Below are positions 9,096 to 42,657 of a stretch of 44,242 bases of DNA, in pieces (positions within the stretch are counted from its first letter, which is position 1; the number at the start of each line of letters is the position of its first letter). The translations under genes were made by a program, and so were the position numbers. Where the stretch lies: NCBI RefSeq assembly GCF_019599295.1, contig NZ_JAIEWN010000002.1:149821-194062 (forward strand), written 5' to 3'. This stretch comes from Oscillochloris sp. ZM17-4. GTDB lineage: Bacteria; Chloroflexota; Chloroflexia; Chloroflexales; Chloroflexaceae. A model generated the notes under the pieces. It did not search any database. It was not told the DNA's origin and saw nothing but the letters and a program-made list of their open reading frames with translations.

Positions 9096-9193
9096 GGATT
9101 GTAGATTGTAGATTGCAGATTGCAGATTGGGTGCGGCGATGCTCTGCGCTCTACAATCTACAATCTGCAATCTGCAATCTGCAATCTGCAATC
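9096..9193. repeat. (AATCTGC)n palindrome after ppc, copy 3
   Basis: Five GATTG(T/C)A heptamers (9097-9129) face six CT(A/G)CAAT heptamers (9151-9193) across a short GC-rich loop. The element starts two bases after the ppc stop codon and could act as its transcript end. Confidence 0.9.
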
Positions 9194-9255
9194 CCCCCGG
9201 GGCGAGGTGTGGTATTATTTGCCGGCCATACGCCCTCAGCGGAGATCTTCATTTC

Positions 9256-9765
9256 ATGTATCGCCAGCACAGCCACTGCTCATTCTGCGGCAACACCTTC
9301 AGCGACGGCCATCGCTGGCCGCGGGTCTGCACATCCTGCGGCAGCACCACCTACCGCAACCCGCTCCCTGTCGTGATCGTCCTCTTGCCTGTCGACGACG
9401 GGCTGCTCCTGATCCGCCGGGGCGCCGCCCCGCGCCAGGGCCAGCTCGCCCTCCCCGGCGGCTTCATCGAGGTGAATGAGAGCTGGCAGCAGGCCGCCGC
9501 CCGCGAACTCTACGAGGAGGCCGGCATCCATATCTCGTCCGAGCAGGTCGATGACTTCGGCGTGCGCAGCACCCACGATGGCTACCTGCTGGTGTTCGCC
9601 CTCGGCCCGCAGCTGCGCGAGGTTGACCTGCCGCCCTTCGTGCCCAACAAGGAGGCCGGCGCCCGCGTGCTCATCGCCGCCCCCGCCGAGCTGGCCTTCC
9701 CCCTGCACACCGAGGCGGTCGCCCGGTTCTTCGCCCGCCGCAGCCAGTGGCGGACGATGACCTAG
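9256..9765 (+). CDS. NUDIX hydrolase with zinc ribbon
   Basis: The protein is 169 residues from the ATG at 9256; the in-frame upstream stretch is heptamer repeat and was excluded. Two CxxC pairs near the N-terminus (CSFCG at 8-12, CTSCG about 14 residues later) form a rubredoxin-like ribbon as in NADH-pyrophosphatase-type NUDIX proteins. The NUDIX box GGFIEVNESWQQAAARELYE, continuing EAGI, fits Gx5Ex7REUxEExGU exactly. It hydrolyses a nucleoside diphosphate linked to another group, substrate unknown. The 3' end (ACG ATG ACC TAG) is the left target site of the large element, and the same 12 bases are repeated on the element's far side, so the stop codon survived insertion. Confidence 0.88.
   Translation: MYRQHSHCSFCGNTFSDGHRWPRVCTSCGSTTYRNPLPVVIVLLPVDDGLLLIRRGAAPRQGQLALPGGFIEVNESWQQAAARELYEEAGIHISSEQVDDFGVRSTHDGYLLVFALGPQLREVDLPPFVPNKEAGARVLIAAPAELAFPLHTEAVARFFARRSQWRTMT
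9754..9765. repeat. Left flanking direct repeat (ACGATGACCTAG)
   Basis: This 12-bp sequence is identical to 42646-42657 and brackets the mobile element. It is longer than the 5-bp duplication usual for Tn7/Mu-type transposition; ACGAT within it would be a 5-bp duplication. By symmetry with the right end, the terminal inverted repeat could begin at 9758, inside this repeat. Confidence 0.8.
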
Positions 9766-9769: not shown

Positions 9770-9828
9770 GTATTTTTAGACATCTCGGGGTGCTTATTTT
9801 TAGACATCGAGAAGTATCTTTAGACATC
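9770..9828. repeat. Left-end transposase binding sites L1-L3
   Basis: Three direct copies of GTATTTTTAGACATC lie at 9770-9784, 9794-9808 (TTATT...) and 9814-9828 (GTATCTTTAGACATC), spaced 24 and 20 bp. Multiple terminal sites of this kind are bound by TnsB/MuA-type transposases. L3 overlaps the 3' end of the ATPase gene. Confidence 0.8.
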
Positions 9829-10869
9829 TTCTTCCCCTATTACTCCGCCCGCTGCAGGAGTCTCCTCTGAGGCTCCCGGCGGCGTTGTGGCCTCCTCAGG
9901 TGGCGGTGGGCTATTTGTACCTGCAGGTTCCTGGTTGACCTGGGGGCGACTAGCGCTACCTGTGCTTTTACTATCGAAGGTTTTGAGAATCGTCCGCCGA
10001 CGGAGGAAGATTCTCTCGGCCATCTCCTCCGTGATGAGCCGTGGATGACGATTCTGGCGATCGAGTTCTACCTTGAACTCTGATGTGAGGGTCGTGATCC
10101 TATCCCAATTGCCCGTAGTCGCAAGCCAGGCATCAGTATCGAAGGTAGCCTTACCTTTACCCTCGGCTAGCCCTTTTGCGCGCTTGGCGTCAAGCCCGTT
10201 GAGCCAATGATCGAGCAGTTCGTTGCGAAACGCACTGATGCTCATTGTTGGCACTGAAAGCATATCCGTCACTGAATTCTGTACGGGCGTCACGGTTCCG
10301 ATAAGCCGCTGTGTGAACTCCTCAATCGAGACATTCGTCGCCTGACTACCACAGAGCACCACAGCAAATTGGCGATTACATGTTTCCCAAAGCTCTACAA
10401 TGCGCCAGAGGGTAATCTCGTCAATATATTGCGCATCGTCAATGATGAAGCATCGTACCTTTTTCATCGCGTCAGCAACGCTGAAGGATAGGTCGTGCCA
10501 TCTGTCATCGGAGTACCTTCGACGATGCGGATCTTGCTGCAGCTTATCGCGTAAGAGATCTCGCTCCTCACTACGCGGGACAGCAAAGAGGAGGCGTAGA
10601 TCTGTCAGAAGTTTGGTGAACAGATCGAGTGTGACGGTGCTGGTAAAACGCCCGGTATCCGGCTTCTTGGGGCGCGAGAGACGCACTCCAGCAACCTGAT
10701 CGAACTCGGCGGAGGTAAGCTCAGTCAGCACAAACTGTCTGAGCAAACGACTCTTACCAGTACCACCACCTCCCGCCATCACCGTAAATCTGCCGACCTG
10801 GAGCGCGTGGTTCAGCTGCGCGAAGAGGGAGGTGTATAGAGACAACCTGATGAAGGGAAGCGTGAGCAT
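9820..10869 (-). CDS. TnsC/TniB-like AAA+ ATPase
   Basis: This AAA+ protein of about 349 residues has Walker A GGGGTGKS at 33-40 and Walker B CFIIDDAQ at 140-147, the TnsC/TniB/MuB-type arrangement of an ATP-dependent target selector that recruits the transposase. The C-terminal 60 residues are Pro/Thr/Glu-rich and poorly conserved. I chose the ATG at 10869 because GTAGGTGG precedes it; an in-frame GTG at 10902 is possible. It lies 50 bp downstream of the transposase gene in the same operon. In V-K-type elements TnsC forms a filament that bridges the RNA-guided effector and TnsB; a similar role is an inference here. Confidence 0.8.
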   Translation of the reverse strand: MLTLPFIRLSLYTSLFAQLNHALQVGRFTVMAGGGGTGKSRLLRQFVLTELTSAEFDQVAGVRLSRPKKPDTGRFTSTVTLDLFTKLLTDLRLLFAVPRSEERDLLRDKLQQDPHRRRYSDDRWHDLSFSVADAMKKVRCFIIDDAQYIDEITLWRIVELWETCNRQFAVVLCGSQATNVSIEEFTQRLIGTVTPVQNSVTDMLSVPTMSISAFRNELLDHWLNGLDAKRAKGLAEGKGKATFDTDAWLATTGNWDRITTLTSEFKVELDRQNRHPRLITEEMAERIFLRRRTILKTFDSKSTGSASRPQVNQEPAGTNSPPPPEEATTPPGASEETPAAGGVIGEEDV

Positions 10870-10919
10870 GGTACCACCTACACAGAACCAGGCCGGAAGC
10901 ACTTTGGGGGCGACAACTC

Positions 10920-12851
10920 CTAACTGGCGATCCTAGCTGCATCCTCTGCAAGGAATTGAGCGATGAGTGCATCGCGCATCTCCTGCTGTGGATTCACCTG
11001 TGTATCCTGCGCCGTGCGGTTCGACTGTTTACGACGTGGCTGTGATGGCTTAGTTGTGTGATCAGAAGCTGTTGTGTCCTGATCATTCTGAGCTTCGCCA
11101 GCGCTTCCCTTGCCATTTTCGACCAGCTGCGGAGCATCGGTCAAAAGCTCCTCGAAAAGCGCCTTATCATCATCGCTAATTCGTGGGAGCGAGCAGCTGT
11201 AATCAGCAAGCACCTCAAGGAATCTCCGTCGGAATTCAAAGACTTCAGCGCGCAGCGCGCGCACTGCGGCCCACTGCTGCTCAATATGGGTTTGGCGGCT
11301 CGGAGGATCATCGCCGACAGGGATTAGCCGACTCCACTTCGTCCCGTCCAGACATGCATATATCTGCTCCCCTTTGCTTGAGGGGATGATGGCATAACGC
11401 ACTATCCCACGTGCGGCAGCATCAAGCCAAGGTCGGTAGTCGGACAGGTTGGTTGGCTTATATTTCCCTCGCTTTGGGATATGGATTCCCCTGTCATAAA
11501 TCCGCGTCTCATTGCCATGGATAAGAGCCTGGCCACAGAGGCCAGCACTGCCTAGATACAGCATTCGGTCGAAGGAAGGAATAGGTAACAGGAGCGGATT
11601 GTCATTCTCAAAATGGTCACGGCGCGTTCGCTTTTTACCCGTCACAGCCGAAGCATTCCATCTCTCCTCATGCGCAGACGCCACAGCGCGTAGGTCGCTG
11701 AGGGAAAGCTTCGCAGCTTTTTTGGCCCTACGCCAGGACTCGAGATCATTTTCATCGCGTACGACCCCAGCATATTTTAGGAGGGCCTTGTCGTACTCAC
11801 GCTGCGTAACCTCGACCCCGCCACGGCCCCATGGATGACCAGGAAAGCCAAACATGTGTACAATCTCATCGGCCGGACTTGTCGAAAGTAGCGGAAGAAA
11901 GCCCTCAAGAAACCTGAACTGCGAACCTTTGTCAGTGTAGATAACTTGTGGGCGCACCCTATGAATCAAGATGGCATAGAGCAACAACAGGCGTACATCA
12001 TCGGCTGTGAAATCAACCCGGCGCGCCTCGCCATCGTTGTCGTCAACTGCACGGACGACAAGATGTGATGCGATGATAAAGCCGCTGTACGCGTCGATAA
12101 TACAGAGCAGCGTGACGGTACAACGCCTCTTCCCATGGCGGATGTAAAAAGGCAGCGTTCGGGCATCCATAATCCAGCACTCATTCGGGGCACGAAAGTC
12201 GTTAGGCAGCTTGGGCATCCACTTCACCCATACCTCGCGAGCACCTTCACGGCCCATTTTGAACAGCGCGGGCTGGCGCTTTTGCTGATCACGCAGGCAA
12301 CGCTTGATCATATCAAGTGTTATCAAGCGGCCCCGGTGCTGGGCGTTGGGAAACATTTGACGGAACATGTCAAAAATAAAACCTATCTTGACCCGCTCTC
12401 GTGTACGAACGGTCAGGCCATTAGGTAGCACAGCCTCCCAGTCACCGAACAAATAGGCTCCTGTCACAATTGCCTGCTGGTCTTTAGAAAGCTCCATTGG
12501 CGGTTGCCCTGCTAGGCTCACCACGCTGTAGATATACGCATTGGGGTCTTCTGGTATTCCCAAGCGGAAGCGCTGTAGGTTACGAGCCTTGTTCTCAACA
12601 GATTGGGCGCTCTTGACCTTCAATTCTGCTATAGCGGTCGCGCGAGCACCGTCAGGTAAACGTCGTTTCTCGTCAATCGGCCCAACAGATCCATAAAGCA
12701 TGTCGGCATATTTGCGAACTAGACCTGCAAAGTGGATCCTCTCCATCTGCACTTCAGGCGACATCCGATTGAAGCGGCGCTTCGCCTCATCGTAATCTTC
12801 TCTGCTAAAGACGTTGAGCTTGCTAGCATCAGGCAACGTCTGCTGCTCCAT
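10920..12851 (-). CDS. TnsB/TniA-like DDE transposase (Mu family)
   Basis: The protein is 643 residues. The N-terminal ~220 residues are DNA-binding helices. The integrase core follows with the acidic triad visible: D229 in WIMDAR, D307 in IYTDKGSQF and E347 in WGRGGVEVTQRE. The C-terminal part has the Mu-transposase barrel region, then a basic tail rich in Arg, Lys and Thr, a plausible ATPase-binding tail. It performs strand transfer of the element ends. The start has GGAGGATCCTA just upstream and overlaps the end of the preceding 867-residue gene by 23 bp, so the two are translationally coupled. With no TnsA recognised, replicative (co-integrate) transposition would be expected unless another nuclease cuts the 5' ends. 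Confidence 0.85.
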   Translation of the reverse strand: MEQQTLPDASKLNVFSREDYDEAKRRFNRMSPEVQMERIHFAGLVRKYADMLYGSVGPIDEKRRLPDGARATAIAELKVKSAQSVENKARNLQRFRLGIPEDPNAYIYSVVSLAGQPPMELSKDQQAIVTGAYLFGDWEAVLPNGLTVRTRERVKIGFIFDMFRQMFPNAQHRGRLITLDMIKRCLRDQQKRQPALFKMGREGAREVWVKWMPKLPNDFRAPNECWIMDARTLPFYIRHGKRRCTVTLLCIIDAYSGFIIASHLVVRAVDDNDGEARRVDFTADDVRLLLLYAILIHRVRPQVIYTDKGSQFRFLEGFLPLLSTSPADEIVHMFGFPGHPWGRGGVEVTQREYDKALLKYAGVVRDENDLESWRRAKKAAKLSLSDLRAVASAHEERWNASAVTGKKRTRRDHFENDNPLLLPIPSFDRMLYLGSAGLCGQALIHGNETRIYDRGIHIPKRGKYKPTNLSDYRPWLDAAARGIVRYAIIPSSKGEQIYACLDGTKWSRLIPVGDDPPSRQTHIEQQWAAVRALRAEVFEFRRRFLEVLADYSCSLPRISDDDKALFEELLTDAPQLVENGKGSAGEAQNDQDTTASDHTTKPSQPRRKQSNRTAQDTQVNPQQEMRDALIAQFLAEDAARIAS

Positions 12852-15432
12852 TAGGATCCTCCTCCGTGTCTAAAGAAGGTTGGGGGTCAATGGCCAACCT
12901 ATTGTTGCTACGCGACAAGTAGACCAACCGTTCGTCGATCTCCACAAAGATTCCCTGCTCGGGCAGGCTGGTCCGGTATGGGTATGCTCGATAGGGAATC
13001 TCACGGGTTAGGCCACCTAGGCGTGCGAAGGAGGATGTATACACATTTCCCTTCAACACGACACCTAGCTCGGTCAACTCTGCGCGGCCCTCACGTGGAA
13101 GTAACCACCCGGCTGCAGGGCTGGTGAAGCCAGGCACAGCGTATCCAGCGCGCCGAGCATCGCCCTCAGCCGGCACGGAAACCTGATTTGAGAGGCGTTC
13201 ATCGTATTCCGCACGCTGCTCGCCACCTTCAACCGGTGTGGTGTTTTGACGACGCGCGTGATACAGCCAGGAGAGCGCAATGCGTTGTAGCTCTGGAAGA
13301 CTCACGTAGCCATTGCCGGTACGGCGTCGAACCTCCTCTGGCAGCACCTTACACACTTCATTAACCAATCGTTGCTTCTGCCAGTGAAGCTCACGAGGAT
13401 TTGGCTGGATCTCGGAAGCCAGCCAGTATGCGGCCTGCCGAAGATCTCCCAAGTCATCGTCATCAAGATTGAGGGAGCGCATGGGCACATGGATACTGCG
13501 AGGGATTCCTCGTAACGGCCACCAGACTACGCCGGGATGGAAAAGTGCCTGGTAGATTGCCAGCCCCAGTTCCTGAGCATGGGGCAAATGAAGCGAGGGC
13601 CAACAACTTATTGGCAGCACACTATCGTGATCGAAGACCAGCATCAGATGGGCCTGTTGTTCGATCCGCGACGTTCGCTCGTTAAGTACAGGGACAGCTA
13701 TCTTGACCGGTACTAACACCCATGCTCGGTGGATCAGCGGCGCCTTGGGGAGGTAGATCGAGACGCGCTTGTGGAGATGATCGGTCTGCATCCCCACACC
13801 GCTGTTCCAGAAAGGCGCTTTCTTTAAGCGGTTAAATAAGGCCAGGATAACTTGTGGCGAGAATTGTGGGAGATCATTCAGGCGGCACAGCTCCCCGACA
13901 CGCTCACGCACATCGCGCGGCGATAGCGCTCCCTCAGTGTGACCAAGCTTGAGGAAGTGGATATAGTGTGTGATCAGATCGGGAACTATTGTTCGCAGCC
14001 GCTCCTGAGTCATACGCCTGAGGCCTAAAGCGCCATACGTTGCCAAGCCATAAAGCCGGCCTGACGACTCTTTATTATTGGGTAAGCGGCCTTGACGACA
14101 AAACTCAGAGATAATCCGCGGGTCTTCCTTCAATCGTTTCTTGAACCCCTTACGGCAGGAGTTACCTGGATAGGTATCAGCTAGCGGAAAAAGCGAGATC
14201 GGAATTTCAAGTGATTCTAGCACCTCCTGTAGTGCGATGAGCAGGCGCTCAATCTCAATGCGCTCAGCATCTGCCAGCCATTCGAGATGCACATTGAGTG
14301 CGATCCGTATATGTTGCATTGTGAAAGTCTGTCCCGTCCCTGTAGGGGAAAGTAGATGATCAGCGATGGCCGCTAGCCCCCGCGTCATGTATTGCTCGAA
14401 AACCTGACCATCAGACTCACAACCCAGGCGCTCCTGTAGCCCTTTCATGACAAGGGAGTTAATCGCTGGCGTAATATGCTCTCGGTAGATTCTCCTGGCC
14501 TCGTCAAATGGCGGTCGATGAAGCAGATCTTGGCGCCAGAGTCCTACCGCCATAATCCTCTGGGCCTCCCGTACCTTGCGCCGCTCATCTCGTGACAATT
14601 GCTCCAGAGGCACATCAGGTGAAGAGGTAGGAAGCTTGTGTTCGGATAGGACTGACTCAATGACCGGCCGGGAGGTGAGTACTTCACGGAGAGCAATGAC
14701 TATCCGACGAATCTGACCCATCGCCTCTTCGGCTTTGTCGGTCATGAGGGCGACGGTTGCGGCGTAGCGCTCCACAAAAATGATGTCGCTTGCAAATGGG
14801 CAGTTCGAGCGGAGCAGCAAGTGAACCGGATGCTGCTCCAGACCTGCAAGCATGATCGCCCAAGCTTCGATAGCCGCATCACGATCAACATGGCCAAGTT
14901 GCTTAACAACGCTTGCTGCCAGCGACTTATCCTGGCAGATTTGCTGATCGAGGAGCGCCTTGATCTGACTCTTCGCTGTCGTTTCCTGCTGAAAGATGCC
15001 TTGAACCTGACGAAGGCATTGCTCATAGGCTGGAGAGGTGAGGCGATGAGGCTTGTGAGAAGAGCGAGGTTTTGCGAACAGGTTGTGCTTGTAACACGAG
15101 GTAAATTCCTTGGTCCATACCTGCTCGTGGATGTACTTCCACACGCGCAGGTCATGGGCAAGCGGGAGTAATGTCTCCCGCATCAAGGTATTCCAGCCGT
15201 TCTCCTGATCTTCGTATGATTCCGAGTTCGCGTGGGTAACTTGGGCTTCTAATATCCTCAACCAGCGTGCTACTTCCTGGGACTGGGATGGGTGAGAAAG
15301 CTTGCTATCCCACATATCATGTTTAGCAAGCACGAGGCGCGCATGGCGCATAATAATGCGCCAACGCTCTGCGATGATCGCATGCGCACCTGTTGGCAGG
15401 CCCAAAACATGGGGTACGGGAAGACGTGTCAT
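12829..15432 (-). CDS. Large transposase-operon protein, possible catalytically dead TnsB-like paralogue
   Basis: This 867-residue protein is the first gene of the transposition operon. I do not recognise the first ~530 residues, which look mostly helical. From about residue 560 the order of elements resembles a Mu/TnsB integrase: a strand pair ending HLMLVFDHDSVLPISCW, a helix HAQELGLAIYQAL, a strand VVWWPLRGIPRSIHVP where the second catalytic Asp should be, a helix PRELHWQKQRLVNEV, then LPELQRIALSWLYHARR and a C-terminal barrel (ELGVVLKGNVYTSSFARLGG). The acidic triad is not where it should be, so I infer an inactive integrase fold that may bind ends or partner the active transposase. It could also be an unrelated accessory or target-selection subunit standing in for TniQ. 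The fold call is tentative. Confidence 0.5.
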   Translation of the reverse strand: MTRLPVPHVLGLPTGAHAIIAERWRIIMRHARLVLAKHDMWDSKLSHPSQSQEVARWLRILEAQVTHANSESYEDQENGWNTLMRETLLPLAHDLRVWKYIHEQVWTKEFTSCYKHNLFAKPRSSHKPHRLTSPAYEQCLRQVQGIFQQETTAKSQIKALLDQQICQDKSLAASVVKQLGHVDRDAAIEAWAIMLAGLEQHPVHLLLRSNCPFASDIIFVERYAATVALMTDKAEEAMGQIRRIVIALREVLTSRPVIESVLSEHKLPTSSPDVPLEQLSRDERRKVREAQRIMAVGLWRQDLLHRPPFDEARRIYREHITPAINSLVMKGLQERLGCESDGQVFEQYMTRGLAAIADHLLSPTGTGQTFTMQHIRIALNVHLEWLADAERIEIERLLIALQEVLESLEIPISLFPLADTYPGNSCRKGFKKRLKEDPRIISEFCRQGRLPNNKESSGRLYGLATYGALGLRRMTQERLRTIVPDLITHYIHFLKLGHTEGALSPRDVRERVGELCRLNDLPQFSPQVILALFNRLKKAPFWNSGVGMQTDHLHKRVSIYLPKAPLIHRAWVLVPVKIAVPVLNERTSRIEQQAHLMLVFDHDSVLPISCWPSLHLPHAQELGLAIYQALFHPGVVWWPLRGIPRSIHVPMRSLNLDDDDLGDLRQAAYWLASEIQPNPRELHWQKQRLVNEVCKVLPEEVRRRTGNGYVSLPELQRIALSWLYHARRQNTTPVEGGEQRAEYDERLSNQVSVPAEGDARRAGYAVPGFTSPAAGWLLPREGRAELTELGVVLKGNVYTSSFARLGGLTREIPYRAYPYRTSLPEQGIFVEIDERLVYLSRSNNRLAIDPQPSLDTEEDPNGAADVA

Positions 15433-16957: not shown

Positions 16958-16970
16958 GCCTACACAGAGG

Positions 16971-16999: not shown

Positions 17000-17039
17000 T
17001 ATTTACATAAAGAACTTTTGTTCTCACCAGAGGGCTAGT

Positions 17040-18149: not shown

Positions 18150-18150
18150 G

Positions 18151-22481: not shown

Positions 22482-22482
22482 A

Positions 22483-22549: not shown

Positions 22550-22564
22550 CCAGGAAATACACTG

Positions 22565-25473: not shown

Positions 25474-25482
25474 GTATCGCTT

Positions 25483-31400: not shown

Positions 31401-31986
31401 CAGCCTCTTTGCTGAAATCCCGCATCGTGCTGCCCTTAGCCGGTTGGCTGAACTGGCAGCCTGTATGCTGGCCTTGGGACGTGACGAACTAACTCTCGAA
31501 GCCTTTGTGCGTGGAGCATGCCTTGATATCCTGCCTGATCGCGACCCTCAGGACAAGCCCGATGCCGATGTACTGGATCGCCTACTGCGCTCGGTCGTGC
31601 GCCATACTGGGCTGCTAACCGAGAATCGTGGGCGCTATCGGTTTACCTATGGCTTTCGCGACTACCTGGCGGCCCAAGCCCTCGCATACTCCGCCGACAT
31701 GGCTGATCGGCTCTTTGAGAAACGCGCCGAGGCAGGCTGGCGCACTACGATCATGCTGGCAATTGGCTACCAAGCCACAAACAATCCACGTATACTCAAG
31801 CCACTGTTCTCCCGGCTGTTGGCCGATGGCGAGGAGAGCACGATTTTGGCCGCAGAGGCTTTGTGTGAGGCCCTCGACGGGCGTGTGCCTGAGCTAGAAC
31901 CGGAGCGTCGCCAGCTGCTGACCCGGTTACGCGAGATGGGCGCCAATAATGGACTGATGCGTCGGCTGGAGCCTCTTGATGAGTGA
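25483..31986 (+). CDS. Giant NACHT-CHAT-NACHT STAND protein (putative defence effector)
   Basis: The protein is 2167 residues from a TTG start (AGGTAT upstream), only 9 bp after hsdS. A first NACHT-type ATPase has Walker A GEPGIGKS at 58-65 and Walker B LHLFLDSLDE at 120-129. A long helical region of about 900 residues follows, likely HEAT/ARM-like sensor repeats. A CHAT caspase-like domain (about 1240-1585) keeps the His-Cys dyad: H1450 in LVAHGAY and C1497 in LASCESAG. A second NACHT has Walker A GEAGSGKS at 1712-1719 and CLFMLDGLDEID at about 1811-1822. STAND proteins of this type sense phage or self damage and activate a protease that kills or arrests the cell. Two NACHT modules around one CHAT domain is unusual; it may be a fusion of two ancestral genes. 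Confidence 0.88.
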   Translation: MSKPAYQWKRFWYPQGEPVDISDGGYLRDPDISRPLSYAPQPVPSEALFDVPCLVLLGEPGIGKSTALKAFQAHTERQIAATDDRLLLVNLADCPTDNTLYHKLFDNRILQRWKEESFRLHLFLDSLDETLMPVATVGRMLVDEFQNYPAERLLLRIACRSADWPEVSLGEQLKLQWGKQAVHIYELAPLRRLDVAVAATANGFDRDAFLQAVDQADVVPLAIKPITLRFLLDTFRHGGGHFPDTKAELYEKGYCELCKEQNSYRREMGRVGSYTAEKRLSAAKRIAAITIFTKRATIWTDRIHGDVMPEDVSVQSLISSDDDQSPFPKPLIEETLSTALFSSRGPGRLGWSHQTYPEYLAVQYLTEHQVRLPQILSLITSGDDYENRIVPQLREVTARLCSVNPDVYEFVLRHDPKVLLRSDLSGLRSEQRKDLVDALLASLQRDEHQETSDIVVGSLKRLTHPDLAEQLQAYFRNETNNTSVRRLATDIAEACALMELGSDLVAIALNNDEPYPLRVDAASMAARIGSPDDKDALRAILTPGIDDPSDELKGAVLRGLWPASISATDLFATLAPPKNPEALTQYWMFIEHELAQYLWPEHLPVALGWVEQQALEPEEPKWRAFDQLAGNIFLRAWEHLDDPATLAAFARVLPVRARERGRIFGEAIGIDQTAKTAFHQAFEKAVSIRRKVVQAIIPLLVSKPDEGVWLVFSQPSLLTSNDLEWLLTQLERAVDPEERGVIAKLIWRLYNNESTEHLNLLYPATERFPDLASYWSSLFEPTLLASPDARIRRAGYKEQLKATQEEVDPEVQRQTIVQRLEVWLDKIEAGETIEWWRLNDLMRRGPNGRPTHFDHETDLTLLPGWQWSDEATRRRIILAAAQYLETQESHPEEWLGKSVISLPAYAGYRALRLIQRIMPEQIDNLPTHVWQRWAPIIVAMHSHSNSSDAPQLHRKLVAQAYKNAPAITIEHLLYSIDNENRIHGAVFILNNFDLCWDEQFAQVLLDKLADETLTPASMCIILEHLFTYEAPEARAYAEKLVVTPSPEEQIVRKRAIFAAWLLFKQTNDSAWDMLWPIFQHDPEFGKEVVTLIAAQPSRQTHGSQLTEEQLANLSIWLERQFPYDKEVFAIGPRDFTDRDHIEMWKQSLLTHLQARGTPAAVQAIQRVIRELPDLTWLQRLLAGAREQAQRSTWIPPKPDEIVKLAENSNLHSVQDVHRPYAKDKDNLSNYLNQDLAATANLELNLAPLGGRLGLTLRYSRPDDKGEDLPGPFPVNLDKERLIALENDPKAYGAELTAQLLANQTARQEFISRCDSALEAGYNLRVRLHLSAPGLHALRWELLHDPTTQRPLALDSRLLVTRYVSAERRGEVRLRPRGDLRALIAVAAPTNLGKFDLATIDAPAEISRVNVALKDIAVDPLPATGKDSILNALGNALRVGAGYDILYLVAHGAYTHGVPHLYLEDASGKVVVTDGNTLAELIRNLDDRRPRLIVLASCESAGNSYADALAALGPLLAQAGVPAVLAMQGKVQMATVERFAPVFFSELLRDGLADRALAVARLAVQDCPDWWMPVLYTRLLRGRVWEEGTASVVSPAVHIIKTDGGDYAEGNIDKRQGIFAQVVHIHESPPLPLIPTVSAAMPDLRQAVPTYLARLQSELAHTDVVPIPNAYAWADTRAYVPLQVRSDAAAEPAFAALTEHDALRRPAGLILVGEAGSGKSHTLRYAALVLAHAWPMIAPELRDDLGLDLSAPLLPIYVQLQDLPRCRAELHRAEPDKRPTLLRLIDYHLCRLASDDEPLPATLFRSLAATSGQPCLFMLDGLDEIDDHRERHDIQQALVALQHERPEHMYLVTSRPLPDISLSAAGFVERQLAPLQPDQMRNILVHWHRTEYGRGRLLPEVEHQIAAQADSLLATILHDPDLAPMAPNPLFLTAMARMALSQLRLPRLRVQKYEQIVDLLLEWRRNRLRVEDRTSLFAEIPHRAALSRLAELAACMLALGRDELTLEAFVRGACLDILPDRDPQDKPDADVLDRLLRSVVRHTGLLTENRGRYRFTYGFRDYLAAQALAYSADMADRLFEKRAEAGWRTTIMLAIGYQATNNPRILKPLFSRLLADGEESTILAAEALCEALDGRVPELEPERRQLLTRLREMGANNGLMRRLEPLDE

Positions 31987-32015
31987 GCCTTGTAGCTGGA
32001 TGCCCAGCTGATAGG

Positions 32016-32030
32016 GCTCAGTGGTAGAGC
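32016..32030 (+). other. tRNA D-arm-like 15-mer before the NACHT-FGE gene
   Basis: GCTCAGTGGTAGAGC is the D-arm signature of many tRNAs, but no anticodon or T arm follows. It may be a remnant or chance; it lies 6 bp before the start codon at 32037 and its GGTAGAG may serve as ribosome site. Confidence 0.3.
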
Positions 32031-32036
32031 TGTCAT

Positions 32037-35565: not shown

Positions 35566-36054
35566 TCACGCCGATAAGTCGGCGGAGTCTTCGCTGTGTA
35601 AGAGGTAGTCAGTCGTTACAGCAAACAGATCGGCGAGGCGCACCACCAAATCGATCGATGGCGTCTTGTGCCCCCCCTCAATAAAGCTAATATGGGCGTT
35701 TGCAGAAAGACCCAGGCGGCTCGCAAGTTCCGCCTGGGTCATATCGTGCTCCAGGCGCAGCTTACGCACTCGATTGGCAAATGCCTCACCCCAGGGCGCT
35801 ACAGTCTCTCGTGACAGTGGCACGACCAGCACAGGTGGCTGAATAGGCGTCTGCTCGCGAAGCAGATACTCTGTGGTCGTGCCAAGTACAGCCGCCAGGA
35901 GCACTACAAGCTCCAGCGAGGGCGGTTTCCGTTCCGCCTCTAAATGGCTGATGTACGTATGAGAAGCAAGACCGAGCCGCCGGGCTAGCTCAGACTTGCT
36001 GAGACCACGGAGCATACGCAATGCAGTGAGCTTGCCGGCGAACCGACCTGGCAT
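35566..36054 (-). CDS. Regulator with two XRE-type HTH domains
   Basis: The protein is 162 residues from the ATG at 36054, chosen because GGGAG precedes it closely; the open frame extends further upstream without a ribosome site. The first HTH is at about 8-62 (RGLSKSELARRLGLASHTYI, then LEAERKPPS), and the second at about 92-150 (HDMTQAELASRLGLSANAHI, then IEGGHKTPS). Each ends in T-T-[ED]-YLL, as in Cro/CI-type regulators. The tandem arrangement suggests one protein binding two half-sites. It diverges from the IscB-like gene, and a perfect palindrome lies in the shared region, so it may control the effector module, as small regulators do near cas12k in V-K elements. Confidence 0.82.
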   Translation of the reverse strand: MPGRFAGKLTALRMLRGLSKSELARRLGLASHTYISHLEAERKPPSLELVVLLAAVLGTTTEYLLREQTPIQPPVLVVPLSRETVAPWGEAFANRVRKLRLEHDMTQAELASRLGLSANAHISFIEGGHKTPSIDLVVRLADLFAVTTDYLLHSEDSADLSA

Positions 36055-36116
36055 AAGCTCCCAAGGGAGGGAGCCACTTGACATCGTGAACGGACGTGCG
36101 CTATACTGTGACCGTT

Positions 36117-36126
36117 GGTTATAACC
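36117..36126. promoter_or_regulatory. Palindrome GGTTATAACC, candidate XRE operator
   Basis: This perfect 10-bp palindrome lies 63 bp upstream of the XRE start, next to TATACT-like sequence at 36102-36107. Its position suits autoregulation and control of the divergent effector genes. Confidence 0.4.
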
Positions 36127-36141
36127 AGCACGTGGCCGAGA

Positions 36142-36319
36142 ACCTTCCATCCTGCAGGCTCCCCAGCTCAGCTCATGGAAGGTCTCGCTGCGTTTCTGAT
36201 AGCGCTGGCGCATTGTAGCATAGCCGCCCTCGCACGCCGCGATTCACAATCACCCCACCTCCTGACGGAGAGTAGCCTCTTTTCGAGGCTGGACAAGCCC
36301 CATCATTCGGGGAGTGCCT
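36142..36319 (+). ncRNA. Candidate omega-RNA-like element directly upstream of the IscB-like gene
   Basis: Known IscB genes have their guide RNA scaffold directly upstream of the start codon. Here a chain of hairpins ends 7 nt before the ATG: ACCTTCCAT/ATGGAAGGT (36142-36150 with 36175-36183), CTCC/GGAG (36259-36270), AGCCTC/GAGGCT (36274-36290) and CCCC/GGGG (36298-36312). A diverged copy of the central hairpins is at 35418-35448. RNA function is inferred from place and structure only. Confidence 0.45.
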
Positions 36320-37825
36320 ATGTCCAGCCCCGTGTTTGTTCTGGATACTCAGGGGAGGCCACTCATGCCAATGGGTGCCGCATACGCTCGTAAGCTTCTG
36401 CGTAGCAGCAAGGCGCGTCGTGTGACGCATCACGCGTTCTTTGTCATCCAGCTTACCCAGCCCGTTGCATCCCCTGATCTCCGCCCGATCACGCTCGATA
36501 TCAGCATCCAGCTCGCCACTGCCGAGTTGCTGTTGGTTACAGTAGGCCCCAAACAGGCTCATACGCTCCTTCGCATTCTCGTCGATCTCCAAACGGACTT
36601 ACCCTCGCGGCTGCGTCGACGTGCGGCACATCGCCGCCGCCGTCGGCTGCGCGGCCGCTATCGAGTAGTACGGCGGCAGGGTCTGCCCTACAGGCTGCGT
36701 CGGCCCAACTTGCGCCGCTCTACCTGGGGTGCGATACATCGGAGGATCCGTCCTGAAGAAAGCCCTGCTACAGCAGCAAAGCCATCAGCTGTTATCCGCT
36801 GGCGCGTTGAAGCCATTGATCGGGTTGTTGCTGCGCTGCGCCGCTACATCCCTATTAGCCATGTGCAGATCAGAGATCGCACTATTGGCAGGCTCAGCGG
36901 AATCTCCAACTTGACGCCTGCCGAGCGGCGAGAGGCTCTCATTAATGCATATGGTCACGAGGTAAGCCCAGGCCGGCGCGTGCCACGGTGCGGCTACTGC
37001 GGGACAAGCGCTGGTTCCATCGAGGTCGATCATATCTTGCCTATAAGCCGTGGTGGCACTGACGCCTGGTCAAACCTCACTCTCGCCTGCAAATCTTGTA
37101 ACCGCCGTAAAGGCAGCCGCACACCCAAAGAGGCAGGGATGCGCTTGATCTGGGATCCTAGCCGCCTACCTGCCTCCCCTCGCCGCACTAACCCTTACCT
37201 TTACTGGACAAGCCGCCTTCTCCGCGATCGATTGAACAATGTTGCGCTCGCTCCTGCGCAGGTAGCAGTGGGTGAGCCAACAGCGACTACTCCCAACCCG
37301 ACACCTAACACGGGGAAGAGTGGCAGAGTTCCAACCTTTGTCGCGAAGCCAATCAGCCGCCAGCGCAAGCAGGTCTATACCGCACGCAACCTGTCGCAGA
37401 ACACGCCGCTAGGACAGGGTATTGAGCGTGTCGGCAATGTAGTCAAAAAGCGAACCCGAGTAAACACCGGGCTACTTATCTCGTCTACAAAGCCCACACG
37501 CATTCGGGTTATCAGTGCAGGCGAGCTAGGAAGCAACATATCCTCTAACGCCCCCTCACACCGCCTCATTCGACTGGGCCTGCTCTGTGCAGCTCGCAGA
37601 TCTGGCCAGCGCGTAGTCGGGATCGTCAGCGCAGTCCATTCTCTGGGCAGGCTTACTCTGCTCACAATTGCCGCTGCAGATACGAACCGCATCACCTGGA
37701 AGCGCGTAGTTGTGAGTCCTCGCCAGGAGCTACAGGTTCTGTCTAACGACAGGGTTATTTTCTTGCCGGGACCGCCTGAAAAGGCAGCAAACTCATCATC
37801 GGCCAGTAGTTCTCTCCCTACTTAA
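36320..37825 (+). CDS. IscB-like HNH protein with degraded RuvC
   Basis: The protein is 501 residues from the ATG at 36320. The N-terminus is the IscB PLMP domain: FVLDTQGRPLMPMGAAYARK with PLMP at 14-17. A strand with D60 (ITLDISIQL) stands where RuvC-I belongs, but lacks the GIDPG context. A very Arg-rich bridge helix covers 97-145. At the RuvC-II position VQIRDR has R185 instead of Glu. The HNH domain is intact: C224GYC227, D237-H238, N252, CKSCN at 257-261 and GSRTP. After ~300 the sequence is unlike IscB and has no RuvC-III HHxxD. The RuvC nuclease is therefore probably lost while the HNH nickase could work. The gene is followed 27 bp later by the Cas12-like gene, so they are probably co-transcribed. 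Confidence 0.72.
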   Translation: MSSPVFVLDTQGRPLMPMGAAYARKLLRSSKARRVTHHAFFVIQLTQPVASPDLRPITLDISIQLATAELLLVTVGPKQAHTLLRILVDLQTDLPSRLRRRAAHRRRRRLRGRYRVVRRQGLPYRLRRPNLRRSTWGAIHRRIRPEESPATAAKPSAVIRWRVEAIDRVVAALRRYIPISHVQIRDRTIGRLSGISNLTPAERREALINAYGHEVSPGRRVPRCGYCGTSAGSIEVDHILPISRGGTDAWSNLTLACKSCNRRKGSRTPKEAGMRLIWDPSRLPASPRRTNPYLYWTSRLLRDRLNNVALAPAQVAVGEPTATTPNPTPNTGKSGRVPTFVAKPISRQRKQVYTARNLSQNTPLGQGIERVGNVVKKRTRVNTGLLISSTKPTRIRVISAGELGSNISSNAPSHRLIRLGLLCAARRSGQRVVGIVSAVHSLGRLTLLTIAAADTNRITWKRVVVSPRQELQVLSNDRVIFLPGPPEKAANSSSASSSLPT

Positions 37826-37852: not shown

Positions 37853-40800
37853 ATGCGAAAGGCGTACCTCGTGCTAAAACAAGAAGAGCCGCCCAGATCA
37901 GGACAGCCCTGGCAAGAGATCAGCGCTGAGCTCTGCGCCGAGTCCGTCGCTTTCATCGCCGGCTTTGGGCGCCCTAAACAGCTCTACCTGACCGAACGTT
38001 GTGCGCTACGCGCCTCCCGTGAGAAGGAGACAGAAACGATCTGGGCACAGGTAACAAAGACCAATGGAACGGGAGCGGCGTGGGAAGTAATCTGGTCTGA
38101 CCTCAAAAAGCCACAGCCAGACGGCTTCCTTACCCATGTCCAGCAGATATATGAAAAAGAGGGCGATCACCCATGGCTACGAGGGAAGCCTCAGCGCACG
38201 CTGTCCAACTTCATCTCGCGCTACTTCTCCAGGCGACCGGGCTTTAGTGAACGGAATATTCCGCTAAATGCGACCTTGCGCGAAGATATCTGGCGCATGG
38301 CAGCTAAGGGAATTCTTCTTTGGATCTGGGCTGTCCATTACAAATGGCAGCAAAAGGCACAAGAAGATTGGAGAGATTTTACTATTCAACATCTCCGCCT
38401 GATTATCTCCACTGTCTATATCGTAGATCGCCACGCTCGTCGAGTATATGGCCCTGAGCCTGCGGCCAAGGCAGTACAAGGGCTATACTGGGCCTGGCTG
38501 TGTATAGTTTACCGCCGCGTGCTCTATGAGGAGACACTGACAGGAGCGCAAGACCGTGCGCCTACATGTAAGGAACCGGCTGAGATCGAATCCGAGCCAG
38601 GGGAAGGAGATGCTCGCAACGGTTCCGAAGATGACATGTTGGATCAAGAGGTTAACGACACGATCATCCGAGGGCGTAACTACTACATAGTACTCACGGA
38701 GACGATCAAGCTCTGGTCATACCTGGACAGCTTGTATCAGCAGGCATCAAGCCGGGTAGTGCCTTTCAAGCCTCATGAAGGAAAAACACTGGCACAAGTC
38801 GGCAAGGCCACCGTCCGGCAATTGGCGAAGCGCATTCCACCAAGCTCTGTGATTGAACGAGTCCGCGAGGCGATAAAAAAGCTGCTTAATCCGAAGTCTT
38901 TCCTTCCCAGCGAGATTGAGGCGGCCGGTGCATTGGAGCATCCCTGGAAACGACGACGACGTTACCGGCAACAGACGCGGCAGAAAGAGCGCCGCGTTCG
39001 GTCTGGTGTGATGGCACGCAGCCAGCTTGACCCTACCTGGTTTCGTCCGATCCTGTTACACGAGCTTGACGACTTCGAGTTAACAATGCTTGATCGCGAG
39101 CTTAGCGACCTCCTGGCGCTTCATAAGCAATATGATATCGTTCGCAAGGACATCGAAACCTTTCTGCGACTCAAGCCACCCGGATTTCCACGTCGTCCCC
39201 GAATAACACCCAACTCCCCAGGAGAGCGACTAACCGTATATCGCACCGATCTCGGTTGGTTTGATGACCCCTTCCCTACCAACGCGCCTTGGGCAACCTG
39301 GCATCACTATAAGCCTGATGAGTTGCTACAATTTGAGGCAAACGCTCGTGCAAAGTGGCTTCGCGCAGCGCAACTTCAGGGTAAGCACACATTGCATCCG
39401 CTGACGTACTTACGTGCCATGAAGCCGAGCAGCGACTCGGGCGCAAAATTACGTGACTTCTCGATCATTTTCTACGAGCAGCTACCAAATGAGCAGGCGC
39501 TCCTGAAACGCTACAGCTTCCTTCCCGATCCAATCCGCCAGCATCGTGTCGACCTCGATATGCAACGCGGCCGATTATATCGCTACGAGTTGGTGATCAC
39601 ACTCCACGGAAGATATGCATTCGACAAGCCACATAACCGTACCCCTCCACGACGGCGGCAAGTCGCTACAGCGGATATTGTTGCTAGTCAGGAGGCCAAA
39701 TCACCATCAGACGCGAATTTCACTCTCCATCCTGAGAAAGCGCATACTTTCCAGCATCTGAATGCGCCGTATACGTCCTACGAACTTTCGAGCAATTTGC
39801 CCCATATCGTATTCCCTATAGATTGCGGAACACGTCTTGCAGAGTTGCTGAATGAGATTTTAGCTCAACAGTATGCAGCGCAGAAAATGGCCTACGAGCG
39901 GTGGAATTCCCCTCGGCGCACCCCTGGTCGCAGATCATCCTACCGTAGCCGGCTAGTGCGTTGGACACGCACGCGCAAAAAGAACCGCCGCAAAAGTGTG
40001 CGCCGAGGGCCGGACCATCTTGAACGTAGACCTCGTTTCCACTATGCAGAGAAGCCCCTGCATAAATGCCTTCCCAAAGCAGCAATTGCGAACGCCCACG
40101 TGGTAAGCCAGCCAGGTGGCAGAAAAAATGCACGGCTGTTTCTTCACCTCCAGCTGTCTCACAAGGTTCCCCCGGTTATTGATGGCCTAGAAAATATTAT
40201 CGGCATTCATATGCGAAGGGATGGCAGTATGTCCTATGCCGTTATCACCTTTGCAGGGGAAGGTGTTGAGATTGGCGATGTACCGTTGCCAACCAACCTG
40301 CGGATCGACCCTGACCAACCGGAGTACGGCGACGAATATGTCTACCAGATGGCTAGCATACTCGTAAGGCTCGCATTGCGACACCGAGCATTCATTGTGA
40401 TCGAGGATCTGTTCTACCTCACACAGGAAGCTGATGCTTCTCGCAAGGTGAACCGGCAAAACTTTGCGCTGCCAATCAAACGTGTTCAGCAGGTACTCAC
40501 CGACAAAGCAATGCTTGCAGGTCTACCCGAACCGCATATCACTCGAGGCGTGGCATGGTCAAATGCCTGTGCGGAGTGCGGGCATCACCTCCGATCAGGC
40601 GATGTTCAGATCCATCAGGAGGAACACGCCTGCCCAAATTGCCGCCCAGACGACTTTATCGGCGTGCCAGTCCTGCTCGACGCTGCTGCGCTGGTGTACA
40701 ACCTACCAGGTACAGAACGATTGCAGCTCACACCTGACGTTGTAGCCGATATGTTCGCTCGCCGTATTGTGTGGTGGGATGACCTGCGACTCGTAGCAGA

Positions 40801-41737
40801 CAACCCGTGGCTCGCTGGTTACACCAAGCCAATCAAGGTTATCTTCCAGACTGATGATGAACGGGCAGCCTATATCCTCCGGGCCTACCTACGGGAAGCA
40901 GGCCCTCTCTGGCGAGCTCGTATCGATCAGGGGGCATTGGTGCTCCAACCTGACGCAGGCCTGGCCTTGGAGCGCCAGACCGTTGGGCGCGTGCTTAGTG
41001 AGCCGGATACAATCGCGTGTGTAACTTTGGCAGCGGCCCGCGCAGCGCATTTGCCAACTGCCGTACTACAGAGCGACAGCGGACGCTTCGTTAAGCCATC
41101 GATAGAGACGCTGCAGAGCGCGGCAACACGCGCATTCATATTGCCCAGCTTGCCCATAAAGTCCGATCTCGTATACCCGCTCACTGGCATAACCTGGGCT
41201 TATATCAGATGCAACCCCCAGAGTCTCTGGCGAGCTCATGACGAGCGACAGATCGCCTTAGGACTAACGGCAGTAGCAGGTGGAGAGAATCTACCGGCAA
41301 GTTATATTCCTCTGACAACTCATGTCGGGGAGGAGGTGCAGAAACGACTTGAGGCGATCACCGCAAATGGACTTCCCTGGCATCAGTGGCGACACGATCT
41401 GCCAGAGCCTCAGGTCACGACAAGCGACGAAGCAAAGGCCAGCCCACGCTATATCAGCAACCTCTGGATAAATGGGCCGACAATCAGTTCGGCATGTTTC
41501 CGCGCTTGGCGAGGGCAGTTTCGTGAAGCAAAGCTTTCAGCAACAGTAATCGCTGGACTGCTTCCGCCCTTGTATAGACAAGAGGCGCAGTGTGGTCAGG
41601 AGAAGGAGCTTGTTATGCACTGCCGGCGGTGCCGGACACGCCTGCGCGCCACTCACAACACGGCACTGGTCGTAGCTCGGCTAGGGCGAGAGCAGCTTAT
41701 ACGCCGATACCGTGAGCAGATGGCGAAAGCCACCTGA
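37853..41737 (+). CDS. Large TnpB/Cas12-superfamily protein, predicted nuclease-dead
   Basis: The protein is 1294 residues. The first ~700 are unrecognised, with a basic stretch at about 690-730 (RRTPGRRSSYRSRLVRWTRT and more). From 778 the RuvC-like part appears: IIGIHMRRDG with H786 where RuvC-I has Asp; IVIEDL with E851 (RuvC-II Glu kept); the helix LPIKRVQQVLTDKAMLAGLP; then the TnpB/Cas12 zinc finger SNACAECGHH ... HACPNCR (C906, C909, C927, C930) and LLDAAALVYN, where the RuvC-III Asp is displaced or lost. A unique C-terminal ~340 residues follow, with another CxxC (MHCRRC). Loss of the first Asp predicts no DNA cleavage, as in Cas12k of V-K transposons or TnpB-derived repressors. No standard ribosome site precedes the ATG. 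It may be an RNA-guided targeting subunit; alternatively a repressor. Confidence 0.65.
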   Translation: MRKAYLVLKQEEPPRSGQPWQEISAELCAESVAFIAGFGRPKQLYLTERCALRASREKETETIWAQVTKTNGTGAAWEVIWSDLKKPQPDGFLTHVQQIYEKEGDHPWLRGKPQRTLSNFISRYFSRRPGFSERNIPLNATLREDIWRMAAKGILLWIWAVHYKWQQKAQEDWRDFTIQHLRLIISTVYIVDRHARRVYGPEPAAKAVQGLYWAWLCIVYRRVLYEETLTGAQDRAPTCKEPAEIESEPGEGDARNGSEDDMLDQEVNDTIIRGRNYYIVLTETIKLWSYLDSLYQQASSRVVPFKPHEGKTLAQVGKATVRQLAKRIPPSSVIERVREAIKKLLNPKSFLPSEIEAAGALEHPWKRRRRYRQQTRQKERRVRSGVMARSQLDPTWFRPILLHELDDFELTMLDRELSDLLALHKQYDIVRKDIETFLRLKPPGFPRRPRITPNSPGERLTVYRTDLGWFDDPFPTNAPWATWHHYKPDELLQFEANARAKWLRAAQLQGKHTLHPLTYLRAMKPSSDSGAKLRDFSIIFYEQLPNEQALLKRYSFLPDPIRQHRVDLDMQRGRLYRYELVITLHGRYAFDKPHNRTPPRRRQVATADIVASQEAKSPSDANFTLHPEKAHTFQHLNAPYTSYELSSNLPHIVFPIDCGTRLAELLNEILAQQYAAQKMAYERWNSPRRTPGRRSSYRSRLVRWTRTRKKNRRKSVRRGPDHLERRPRFHYAEKPLHKCLPKAAIANAHVVSQPGGRKNARLFLHLQLSHKVPPVIDGLENIIGIHMRRDGSMSYAVITFAGEGVEIGDVPLPTNLRIDPDQPEYGDEYVYQMASILVRLALRHRAFIVIEDLFYLTQEADASRKVNRQNFALPIKRVQQVLTDKAMLAGLPEPHITRGVAWSNACAECGHHLRSGDVQIHQEEHACPNCRPDDFIGVPVLLDAAALVYNLPGTERLQLTPDVVADMFARRIVWWDDLRLVADNPWLAGYTKPIKVIFQTDDERAAYILRAYLREAGPLWRARIDQGALVLQPDAGLALERQTVGRVLSEPDTIACVTLAAARAAHLPTAVLQSDSGRFVKPSIETLQSAATRAFILPSLPIKSDLVYPLTGITWAYIRCNPQSLWRAHDERQIALGLTAVAGGENLPASYIPLTTHVGEEVQKRLEAITANGLPWHQWRHDLPEPQVTTSDEAKASPRYISNLWINGPTISSACFRAWRGQFREAKLSATVIAGLLPPLYRQEAQCGQEKELVMHCRRCRTRLRATHNTALVVARLGREQLIRRYREQMAKAT

Positions 41738-41764: not shown

Positions 41765-41985
41765 ATCCCCCTGTGCGTACCTCCCGCAGGGGTGCCTCCC
41801 TATCGAGAACGTTAGGGCAGGCAAAAATGGCCATAACTGCCCAGGGCCATGGGCCGGGCGACGTGATATTCAAGGCAGGCGCGCGCTGGTCGGGCGCTGT
41901 CGAAATCTGCCGAAATGCATTGTCACGTGACCATCTGGAGGCTGCACACTGAGGCCGTCGCCCAATATCCCTAGAGGGATTTTAG
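41765..41985 (+). ncRNA. Candidate structured RNA, unit A (tracrRNA-like)
   Basis: It begins with hairpin CCCCTG/CAGGGG (41768-41792), then CCCTA/TAGGG, then GGCC-ATG-GGCC. A long-range 7-bp stem GGGCGAC (41856-41862)/GTCGCCC (41957-41963) encloses the perfect palindrome GTCACGTGAC (41922-41931) and TGGAGGCTGCA (41936-41946). The last pairs with the array repeat's TGCAGCCGCCA with one mismatch in 11, as an anti-repeat would. It ends with ATCCC-TAGA-GGGAT-TTT (41967-41983). Its core is repeated in unit B. Position between a Cas12-like gene and a repeat array is that of tracrRNA in V-K elements. Confidence 0.5.
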
Positions 41986-42021
41986 TGCTTATGTTCTCAT
42001 TTCATTGAGGACACAGAGATC

Positions 42022-42050
42022 TTCACAAAGGAGGCTCGGCAAGATATACT
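42022..42050 (+). promoter_or_regulatory. Strong promoter for the unit B/array RNA
   Basis: TTCACA and TATACT are separated by 17 bp, each five of six to consensus. A transcript would begin near 42057, at the base of the hairpin GCACGGA/TCCGTGC (42055-42061 with 42077-42083). Confidence 0.6.
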
Positions 42051-42253
42051 GGACGCACGGATGAGTAACCTTCCATTCCGTGCATCCCTATCGGGCAGGT
42101 TAGGGACTGCGAACATCCAGGGCCATGGGCCGGATGACATGCAAACAAGGCGTGCTTCGCAAGTAGCCTGAGCTCACTCAGCAAGGAACGGTTTGCGAGG
42201 ATTCTGCCCCTGAGGCCACGCATTTAGGGCTTCCTGATGCGGCGAGATCCCAG

Positions 42254-42365
42254 GGTTGCAGCCGCCAAAGCGTGTAGTGATGACTGAAGGTTGCAGAGGA
42301 GGGGTATTTAAACCATCGACCGCAGCGGTTGCAGCCGCCAAAGCGTGTGTGACCATGACTGAAAG
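42254..42365 (+). CRISPR. Mini CRISPR-like array (two repeats, one 36-nt spacer)
   Basis: Repeat 1 (42254-42290) and repeat 2 (42327-42365) share the first 22 bases, GGTTGCAGCCGCCAAAGCGT plus GT, and end ATGACTGAAGG and ATGACTGAAAG, with small differences between. The 3' TGAAAG end resembles type V repeats. The spacer (42291-42326) has no match elsewhere in the window by eye. The 19 bases after repeat 2 before the terminator are also unmatched. Two degenerate repeats next to a transposon end resemble the shortened arrays of V-K elements. Chance duplication of an RNA end is the alternative. Confidence 0.5.
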
Positions 42366-42384: not shown

Positions 42385-42418
42385 GAGACAGCCTGCGCTT
42401 CCGCAGGCTGTCTCTTTG
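42385..42418 (+). terminator. Intrinsic terminator after the mini-array
   Basis: A perfect 13-bp stem GAGACAGCCTGCG/CGCAGGCTGTCTC with a CTTC loop is followed by TTTGTC. It lies 20 bp after repeat 2. Confidence 0.8.
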
Positions 42419-42594: not shown

Positions 42595-42645
42595 GATGTC
42601 TAAAAATACTAATACTGAAATGTCTAAGAATACTCACCTGTATCA
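42595..42645. repeat. Right transposon end with binding sites R1 and R2
   Basis: Inverted copies of the left-end box lie at 42595-42609 (GATGTCTAAAAATAC) and 42619-42633 (AATGTCTAAGAATAC), 24 bp apart as L1 and L2 are. The outer box is 12 bp from the terminus ...TGTATCA at 42645, mirroring the left end. The preceding 42419-42594 holds no recognised gene or further box. Confidence 0.8.
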
Positions 42646-42657
42646 ACGATGACCTAG
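42646..42657. repeat. Right flanking direct repeat (ACGATGACCTAG)
   Basis: Identical to 9754-9765 at the NUDIX stop codon. The chromosome resumes at 42658; 42658-42841 is intergenic with no other recognised site. Confidence 0.8.

Follow-up and report, generated by a model that had tools for sequence, protein, structure and literature searches.

A duplicated RNA unit beside a RuvC-dead Cas12-like gene in Oscillochloris is probably a natural single-guide RNA for the home site of a Tn7-like transposon

We analysed a stretch of 44,242 nucleotides from Oscillochloris sp. ZM17-4 (contig NZ_JAIEWN010000002.1, positions 149,821 to 194,062; the whole stretch is henceforth referred to as the window), in which two related RNA units, A and B, lie between a gene for a Cas12-like protein and a small array of clustered regularly interspaced short palindromic repeats (CRISPR). 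Our main finding is that unit A is probably a natural single-guide RNA that addresses the home site of a transposon, and that the locus is probably part of an RNA-guided Tn7-like transposon whose targeting protein is a Cas12-like effector with an inactivated RuvC domain; we put the probability of this combined reading at roughly 0.9. In unit A a guide for the attachment (att) site is fused to its own copy of the core of a trans-activating CRISPR RNA (tracrRNA), which is why we read it as a natural single-guide RNA, and since this built-in guide matches the gene beside the insertion, the element appears to find its home site by its own guide RNA. The features of the sequence that carry this reading are RNA structure and its covariation, cognate pairing between loop and repeat, guide–target matches, constant insertion spacing and transposon ends. 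The element (about 33 kb, about 9758–42645) carries the whole locus, with the RNA units near its right end, and the genome that carries it is a 6.7-Mb draft in which the window lies on contig C95. Related loci and genomes are given L and G numbers, and the features of the window are listed in Table 1.

Copies of the A type share one arrangement, i.e., an anti-repeat, then a remnant of the CRISPR repeat in cis, then about 20–22 nt of unique sequence. In the window this unique sequence, CTGCACACTGAGGCCGTCGCCC, matches the 3' end of a NUDIX hydrolase gene just outside the left transposon end, and both mismatches fall at silent third-codon positions. Among all 22-mers between the cas12 stop codon and the terminator, the one starting at 41942 fitted the left-end flank best (2 mismatches), while shuffled guides never came below 5 mismatches in 20,000; a match by chance was rejected on these two results. 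When up to three mismatches were allowed, the guide matched its own genome only at unit A itself and at the NUDIX site. In G003 and in G005 (a congeneric genome which corresponds to Chloroflexales bacterium ZM16-3) its match is the same NUDIX gene, which is uninserted in G002, G003 and G004.

In related loci, guides of A-type units match tRNA genes beside left transposon ends that carry repeated transposase sites: tRNA-Arg for unit A of L030 (20/20) and unit 2 of L028 (21/21), tRNA-Met for unit A of L031 (20/21) and tRNA-Glu for unit A of L033 (21/22). The L030 target stands beside the left end of the unit's own element (about 31 kb) on one contig; the targets of L028, L031 and L033 are in the same genome as the guide on another contig, and guide and left end likely belong to one element in each case. 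All five guide–target pairs have the same orientation and the same spacing, with about 55–60 nt from the 5' end of the protospacer to the transposon end (in the window the protospacer is 55–62 nt from the left end). The bases found 5' of the protospacers (CCC, CCA, CTA, ATA and CCC) are too few to define a motif.

The transposon ends are marked by TGTCTAAAAATA-type transposase sites, of which 5 were found in the window against 0.05 expected, and by the direct repeat ACGATGACCTAG, which is 12 bp long. In the G049 element the sequence agrees with a target duplication of 5 bp (GCTGC); the direct repeats of the window and of a second element in G049 are longer. The left transposon end starts with TGACCTAG, which restores the last codons and the stop of the interrupted NUDIX gene; this start may reflect a target duplication of 12 bp or, alternatively, adaptation of the end to its site.

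A sequence-only reading of the same DNA had already proposed that the two RNA units are duplicates with shared motifs in the same order, and that their RNA structure is under selection. A repeat search bore out the duplication: 41792–41828 corresponds to 42080–42116 (76%) and 41841–41865 to 42117–42141 (88%, with CCAGGGCCATGGGCCGG exact over 17 nt), and GAC and CAAGGC come after these blocks in unit A and unit B alike. By simple counting, about 3e-4 exact 17-nt repeats would arise by chance in 3.2 kb, so that none is expected. A covariance model trained on 12 copies agreed, scoring the two window units at 71.5 and 53.9 bits. Such a model, combined with a genome search for homologues, was the check that the sequence-only reading had suggested, and it recovered a copy outside the training set (L030, 16764–16862, E 2e-8) as well as two weaker matches adjoining Cas12-like genes (L033 and L029). 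The RNA unit is present in 16 copies at nine loci in Chloroflexales-related genomes, with a common fold of three helices.

We found strong covariation in this fold. In a MAFFT alignment of the 12 copies, 86.4% of cells pair on the RNAalifold structure, compared with 25–46% when the partner was slid, and the covariation score was 0.463 against 0.206 ± 0.028 in shuffles. In the 16-copy alignment, which was fitted to the covariance model and hence leans towards it, the score was 0.548 against 0.220 and was reached by 0/500 shuffles. RNAalifold run freely on these 16 rows recovered helix 2 and not the other two, so the count of three helices rests on the 12-row alignment and the model structure. 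Rfam gave no match within the window, nor at a relaxed threshold around the locus. With held-out copies found and covariation above shuffles in both alignments, the proposed selection on RNA structure is supported, and we conclude that the duplication of the unit is real and under selection as RNA.

The sequence-only reading had further placed a stretch nearly complementary to the repeat in unit A alone. Unit A does contain one (best duplex with the repeat −32.0 kcal/mol), but unit B has an anti-repeat too, albeit a weaker one (−27.5 kcal/mol). The functional unit A, moreover, extends beyond the shared part to 41963 and includes a sense-direction, repeat-like segment (41908–41941).

The loop of the first hairpin (P1) carries ACCUCC or a variant of it, and in 16/16 copies this loop is able to base-pair with the 3' end of the copy's own partner, i.e., the fused remnant in A units and the array repeat in B units. 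The two sides co-vary: CCUCC/GGAGG in window unit A, CCUUC/GAAGG in window unit B, CUUCC/GGAAG in L025 and L027, CCUCUC/GAGAGG in unit A of L030 and CCUUCGC/GCGAAGG in unit A of L031. Cognate partners form 90 contiguous pairs against a mean of 67 with partners permuted, and 0/20,000 permutations reached 90, although the kinship of copies within a locus makes these permutation figures overstate independence. Swapping the A and B partners within a locus gave worse pairing than the cognate combination in the window, L030 and L031, but not in L028 and L027.

Judging from its layout, unit B is the tracrRNA of the CRISPR array at 42255–42365, with a putative promoter of its own. B-type copies consist of the core, an anti-repeat mostly ending in ..CGCAACT, leader hairpins and then the array; the repeat forms its strongest duplex with this anti-repeat in L025, L027 and L028, and in L032 with an anti-repeat that has a variant ending. 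A TATACT-like box lies just 5' of most B copies; four A units begin 6–31 nt past the cas12 stop codon, where a promoter-like box is absent. Most complete Cas12-like genes have downstream CRISPR arrays, with repeats of about 37 nt beginning GTTGCAG, and one to three copies of the RNA unit. The spacer of the window array has no match elsewhere within the window. Two variant layouts were also seen: in L025 the unit and array are duplicated with a period of 660, and in the G049 element (L030, 16600–16900) about 7 kb separate the A unit from a B unit and repeat, which adjoin the recombinase gene.

The Cas12-like effector is predicted to be RuvC-dead, given that in the alignment its RuvC-I Asp is replaced by His in GxHEH and the RuvC-III Asp is not conserved. 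Its sequence gave weak matches to Cas12f and TnpB and none to Cas12k. With a structural model of the L027 effector (predicted local distance difference test score, pLDDT, 63), Cas12k came out on top (Z 13.6, root-mean-square deviation 11.6 over 236 residues), tied with Cas12f, while Foldseek alone ranked CasX and Cas12f above Cas12k. Homologues of the effector occur in the same genome (L025 and L027) and in G001, G005, G028 and G049, and nearly all adjoin genes for an IscB-like protein and a helix-turn-helix (HTH) protein; among 400 genomes of the phylum none was found outside the same order-level group. A scan of named genomes with the Cas12-like protein gave no relative, and with the IscB alignment the only full-length match was in Chloroflexales bacterium ZM16-3, the others being HNH domains alone. 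As a separate observation, a PstS-like phosphate-binding domain sits in the zinc-ribbon region of the window effector (residues 934–1190, window 40652–41420; TIGR00975, E 1.8e-19; Pfam PBP_like_2, E 4.2e-10) and was present in 0/6 aligned relatives. Most matches of the first protein search were PstS proteins aligned to this inserted domain rather than Cas12, and these were discarded.

The IscB-like protein matches NCBIfam guided_IscB with an E of 1.3e-30, below the curated cut-off, and in the alignment its HNH residues are invariant while the RuvC-I Asp is absent. In L032 (2774–5170) a single reading frame of 798 aa encodes both an HNH domain and the Cas12-like protein, and this naturally occurring fusion suggests that the IscB-like and Cas12-like proteins act together. 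The IscB-like protein might share unit A or unit B.

We propose that unit A would be produced as the 3'-terminal part of the cas12 transcript, that its tracr-like core would bind the Cas12-like effector, that its anti-repeat would fold onto the fused repeat remnant and that its P1 loop (ACCUCC) would pair with the 3' end of the remnant (GGAGG). The 20–22-nt guide would then address an attachment site at a constant place in the chromosome (in the window the NUDIX 3' end, in relatives tRNA genes), where the effector would recruit TnsC and TnsB, so that the element would be inserted 55–60 nt downstream of the 5' end of the protospacer. Unit B, from its own promoter, would be the tracrRNA serving the CRISPR RNAs of the small array. 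In this scheme we infer that the RNA is transcribed and bound by the Cas12-like protein and that transposition is guided, and likewise what part the IscB-like HNH protein plays.

Beside the kinship of copies noted above, several observations weigh against this reading. The window guide and its target differ at two positions, and the pairs of L028, L031 and L033 each span different contigs of one draft genome. The guide of unit A in L027 has no credible target in its genome (none at up to two mismatches besides itself), and a transposase gene was not found on the L027 contig. The similarity between remnant and repeat is weak in unit 2 of L028 and in the A units of L027 and L031, and L025 carries B units only.

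Four other explanations were weighed. It is unlikely that unit A is instead an omegaRNA-like guide for the IscB-like HNH protein, with unit B alone serving the Cas12-like protein. This idea gains from the gap of only about 100 nt between the HTH and iscB genes in the window, which leaves no room for the usual upstream omegaRNA, and from the lack of any Rfam omegaRNA match in 35.4–42.7 kb; unit A itself, however, is also without an Rfam match, its common core and common P1-loop/repeat-end pairing with unit B tie it to a repeat-using protein, and the L032 fusion favours one shared RNA. The insertion spacing is, moreover, similar to that of Cas12k transposons. We regard it as improbable that a site-recognising protein (a TnsD-like selector, e.g., the 867-aa protein encoded next to tnsB) inserted these elements and that the match of the guide is secondary. 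Protein selectors are common among Tn7-like elements at tRNA genes (PMC11406308), yet the targets here vary (NUDIX, tRNA-Arg, tRNA-Met and tRNA-Glu) while guide and target agree every time, and the 867-aa protein resembles TnsB in its fold and gave no match to TniQ. Even less probable is that unit A acts as an autoregulatory single guide, repressing its locus in the manner of tracr-L in type II-A systems. Natural single-guide RNAs with such a role exist (PMC11417352), and no transposase is near unit A of L027, but in five loci the guide matches the attachment site at the left end rather than the cas promoter, and no cas promoter is among the genome matches of the window guide. Finally, a decayed tracrRNA duplicate without function would suit loci where duplication is frequent (three copies in L028, two in L025), but is barely credible for A copies, whose core covaries, whose P1 loop pairs with their own remnant and whose guide matches the site.

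Read as a homing single-guide RNA within a transposon, unit A can be compared with several known systems. A system in which an inactivated Cas12 occurs together with an IscB that retains only HNH and with an HTH protein was described by Altae-Tran et al. 2023 (PMC10910872), who reported that this Cas12 co-purifies with its RNA; the window locus resembles it in its inactivated Cas12, its IscB with RuvC lost and HNH kept, its HTH gene and its CRISPR array. The accessible part of that main text mentions no transposon, second guide-bearing RNA or att-site match for this pair, and discusses transposons for other systems (CasMu). Type V-K transposons target tRNA att sites with a truncated repeat-spacer separate from the array (PMC11406308). 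The likeness to these CRISPR-associated transposons lies in a RuvC-dead Cas12 fold (as modelled), a TnsB nearest to ShCAST TnsB and a separate guide for a tRNA-type att site. By contrast, the att guide here is fused to its own tracr-core copy rather than forming a truncated repeat-spacer apart from the tracrRNA, an IscB-like partner and an extra inactive TnsB-fold protein are present in a Chloroflexota host, and there is no TniQ match among the transposition proteins tested.

The CasMu-V and CasMu-I systems of Altae-Tran et al. also have a transposase and an ATPase, with an inactivated transposase paralogue in CasMu-I, and the modelled TnsB fold and lost DDE triad of the 867-aa protein liken it to CasMuC. 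One CasMu-V has a homing spacer, which lies within the array; the accessible text reports no single-guide unit or IscB there, and the transposase here is nearest to TnsB by sequence. The tracr-L of S. pyogenes Cas9, which represses the cas promoter (PMC11417352), is likewise a tracrRNA-derived RNA working as a single guide, whereas the guide of unit A is directed at the site of insertion and belongs to a duplicated unit that includes a remnant of the repeat. We found no published description of a guide-fused homing RNA of this kind in a literature search that excluded preprints and most subscription papers, and priority is therefore unsettled.

If correct, this reading would give a function to the Cas12 and IscB pair that was reported without one, would place a single-effector transposon beyond the cyanobacterial Cas12k group and would mean that evolution produced the fused “sgRNA” which engineers built by hand. 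From the natural guide–target pairs one can read the guide length, orientation, flanking bases and spacing on which an initial assay could be designed. How single-effector transposons could avoid cointegrates is an open question, to which the HNH nickase is relevant. Much more tentatively, and with the odds against it, these elements might form a distinct class of transposon with two insulated RNA channels, a homing single-guide RNA co-transcribed with the effector and a tracrRNA with its array for other targets, kept apart by the co-varying pairing of loop and repeat end. In such a class the RuvC-dead Cas12 and the IscB-derived HNH nickase would act on one guide RNA, the nickase giving the strand cut otherwise absent from single-effector transposons.

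Table 1. Features of the window, with coordinates counted from its first nucleotide.
Feature	Position	Strand	Evidence or remark
NUDIX hydrolase gene (attachment gene)	9127..9765	+	Conserved in genus; search of 6 congeneric genomes
Protospacer, 3' end of NUDIX gene, just outside left transposon end	9703..9724	+	20/22 guide match
Direct repeat ACGATGACCTAG, left junction	9754..9765	+	Contains target duplication; exact transposon end 9758 or 9766
Left end, three TGTCTAAAAATA-type transposase sites	9771..9826	-	
TnsC-like AAA ATPase	9820..10902	-	
TnsB-like DDE transposase	10920..12851	-	Catalytic D229, D307, E347 conserved
TnsB-fold protein, 867 aa, without catalytic triad	12829..15432	-	Conserved partner of tnsB
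HTH regulator	35566..36213	-	Conserved beside IscB/Cas12 pair
IscB-like protein	36314..37825	+	PLMP/RRXRR and HNH; RuvC acids not conserved, HNH residues conserved
Cas12-like effector, 1294 aa	37853..41737	+	RuvC-I Asp replaced (conserved GxHEH), RuvC-II Glu kept, RuvC-III Asp lost
Unit A scaffold	41769..41941	+	Covariance-model match 41769-41868; covariation; remnant versus repeat alignment
Unit A P1 hairpin	41769-about 41793	+	Loop UACCUCC
Unit A P2 hairpin	Within scaffold	+	CCCUA..UAGGG
Unit A P3 hairpin	41839-41859	+	
Unit A anti-repeat	About 41871-41900	+	Duplex with repeat
Unit A repeat remnant, sense direction	41908-41941	+	3' end CUGGAGG; alignment to repeat
Unit A putative guide CTGCACACTGAGGCCGTCGCCC	41942..41963	+	20/22 match to 9703-9724
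Promoter-like site TTCACA-17-TATACT, 5' of unit B	42022..42050	+	TATACT also precedes L028 and L031 B units
Unit B: tracr core, anti-repeat, leader hairpins up to array	42055..42254	+	Covariance-model match 42057-42144
Unit B P1 hairpin	42055-42083	+	Loop CCUUC
Unit B P3 hairpin	42115-42135	+	
CRISPR repeat 1	42255..42290	+	Ends CUGAAGG, pairs with unit B P1 loop CCUUC
Single spacer	42291..42327	+	
CRISPR repeat 2	42328..42365	+	
Terminator hairpin 3' of array	42385..42414	+	
Right end, two TGTCTAAAAATA-type sites	42597..42632	+	
Direct repeat ACGATGACCTAG, right junction	42646..42657	+	

Among the transposition proteins, the TnsB-like transposase has ShCAST TnsB as its nearest relative, which also gave the best solved-structure matches, and no sequence match to MuA. 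Foldseek assigned the 867-aa protein a TnsB fold (E 1.2e-6, model pLDDT 65), and the DDE triad is absent in the alignment. TniQ was not matched in the TnsB, TnsC and 867-aa proteins, the small open reading frames of the element being only partly scanned. A tyrosine recombinase gene (window 15865–16896) adjoins the 867-aa gene, as it does in L030, L057, L058 and L059. The cargo at 16932–34949 looks defence-like, with a type I restriction-modification set, NACHT/CHAT-like and NACHT/FGE-sulfatase proteins and an SPL-domain protein whose neighbour gene is on the opposite strand.

Related elements showed some further arrangements. The genome of the window carries two more HTH-IscB-Cas12 loci with arrays (L025 and L027), on or near which no TnsB gene was found; L027 carries both A and B units. 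In a sister species (L105, on contig C40 of G005) the same left-end sites stand directly 3' of the same NUDIX gene with no tnsC directly behind them, and this left end is likely a vestigial remnant of a lost element. In L028 (12990–14010), the array is followed on its 3' side by sites resembling left and right ends and by another tnsC/tnsB pair, an arrangement that suggests tandem or nested elements.
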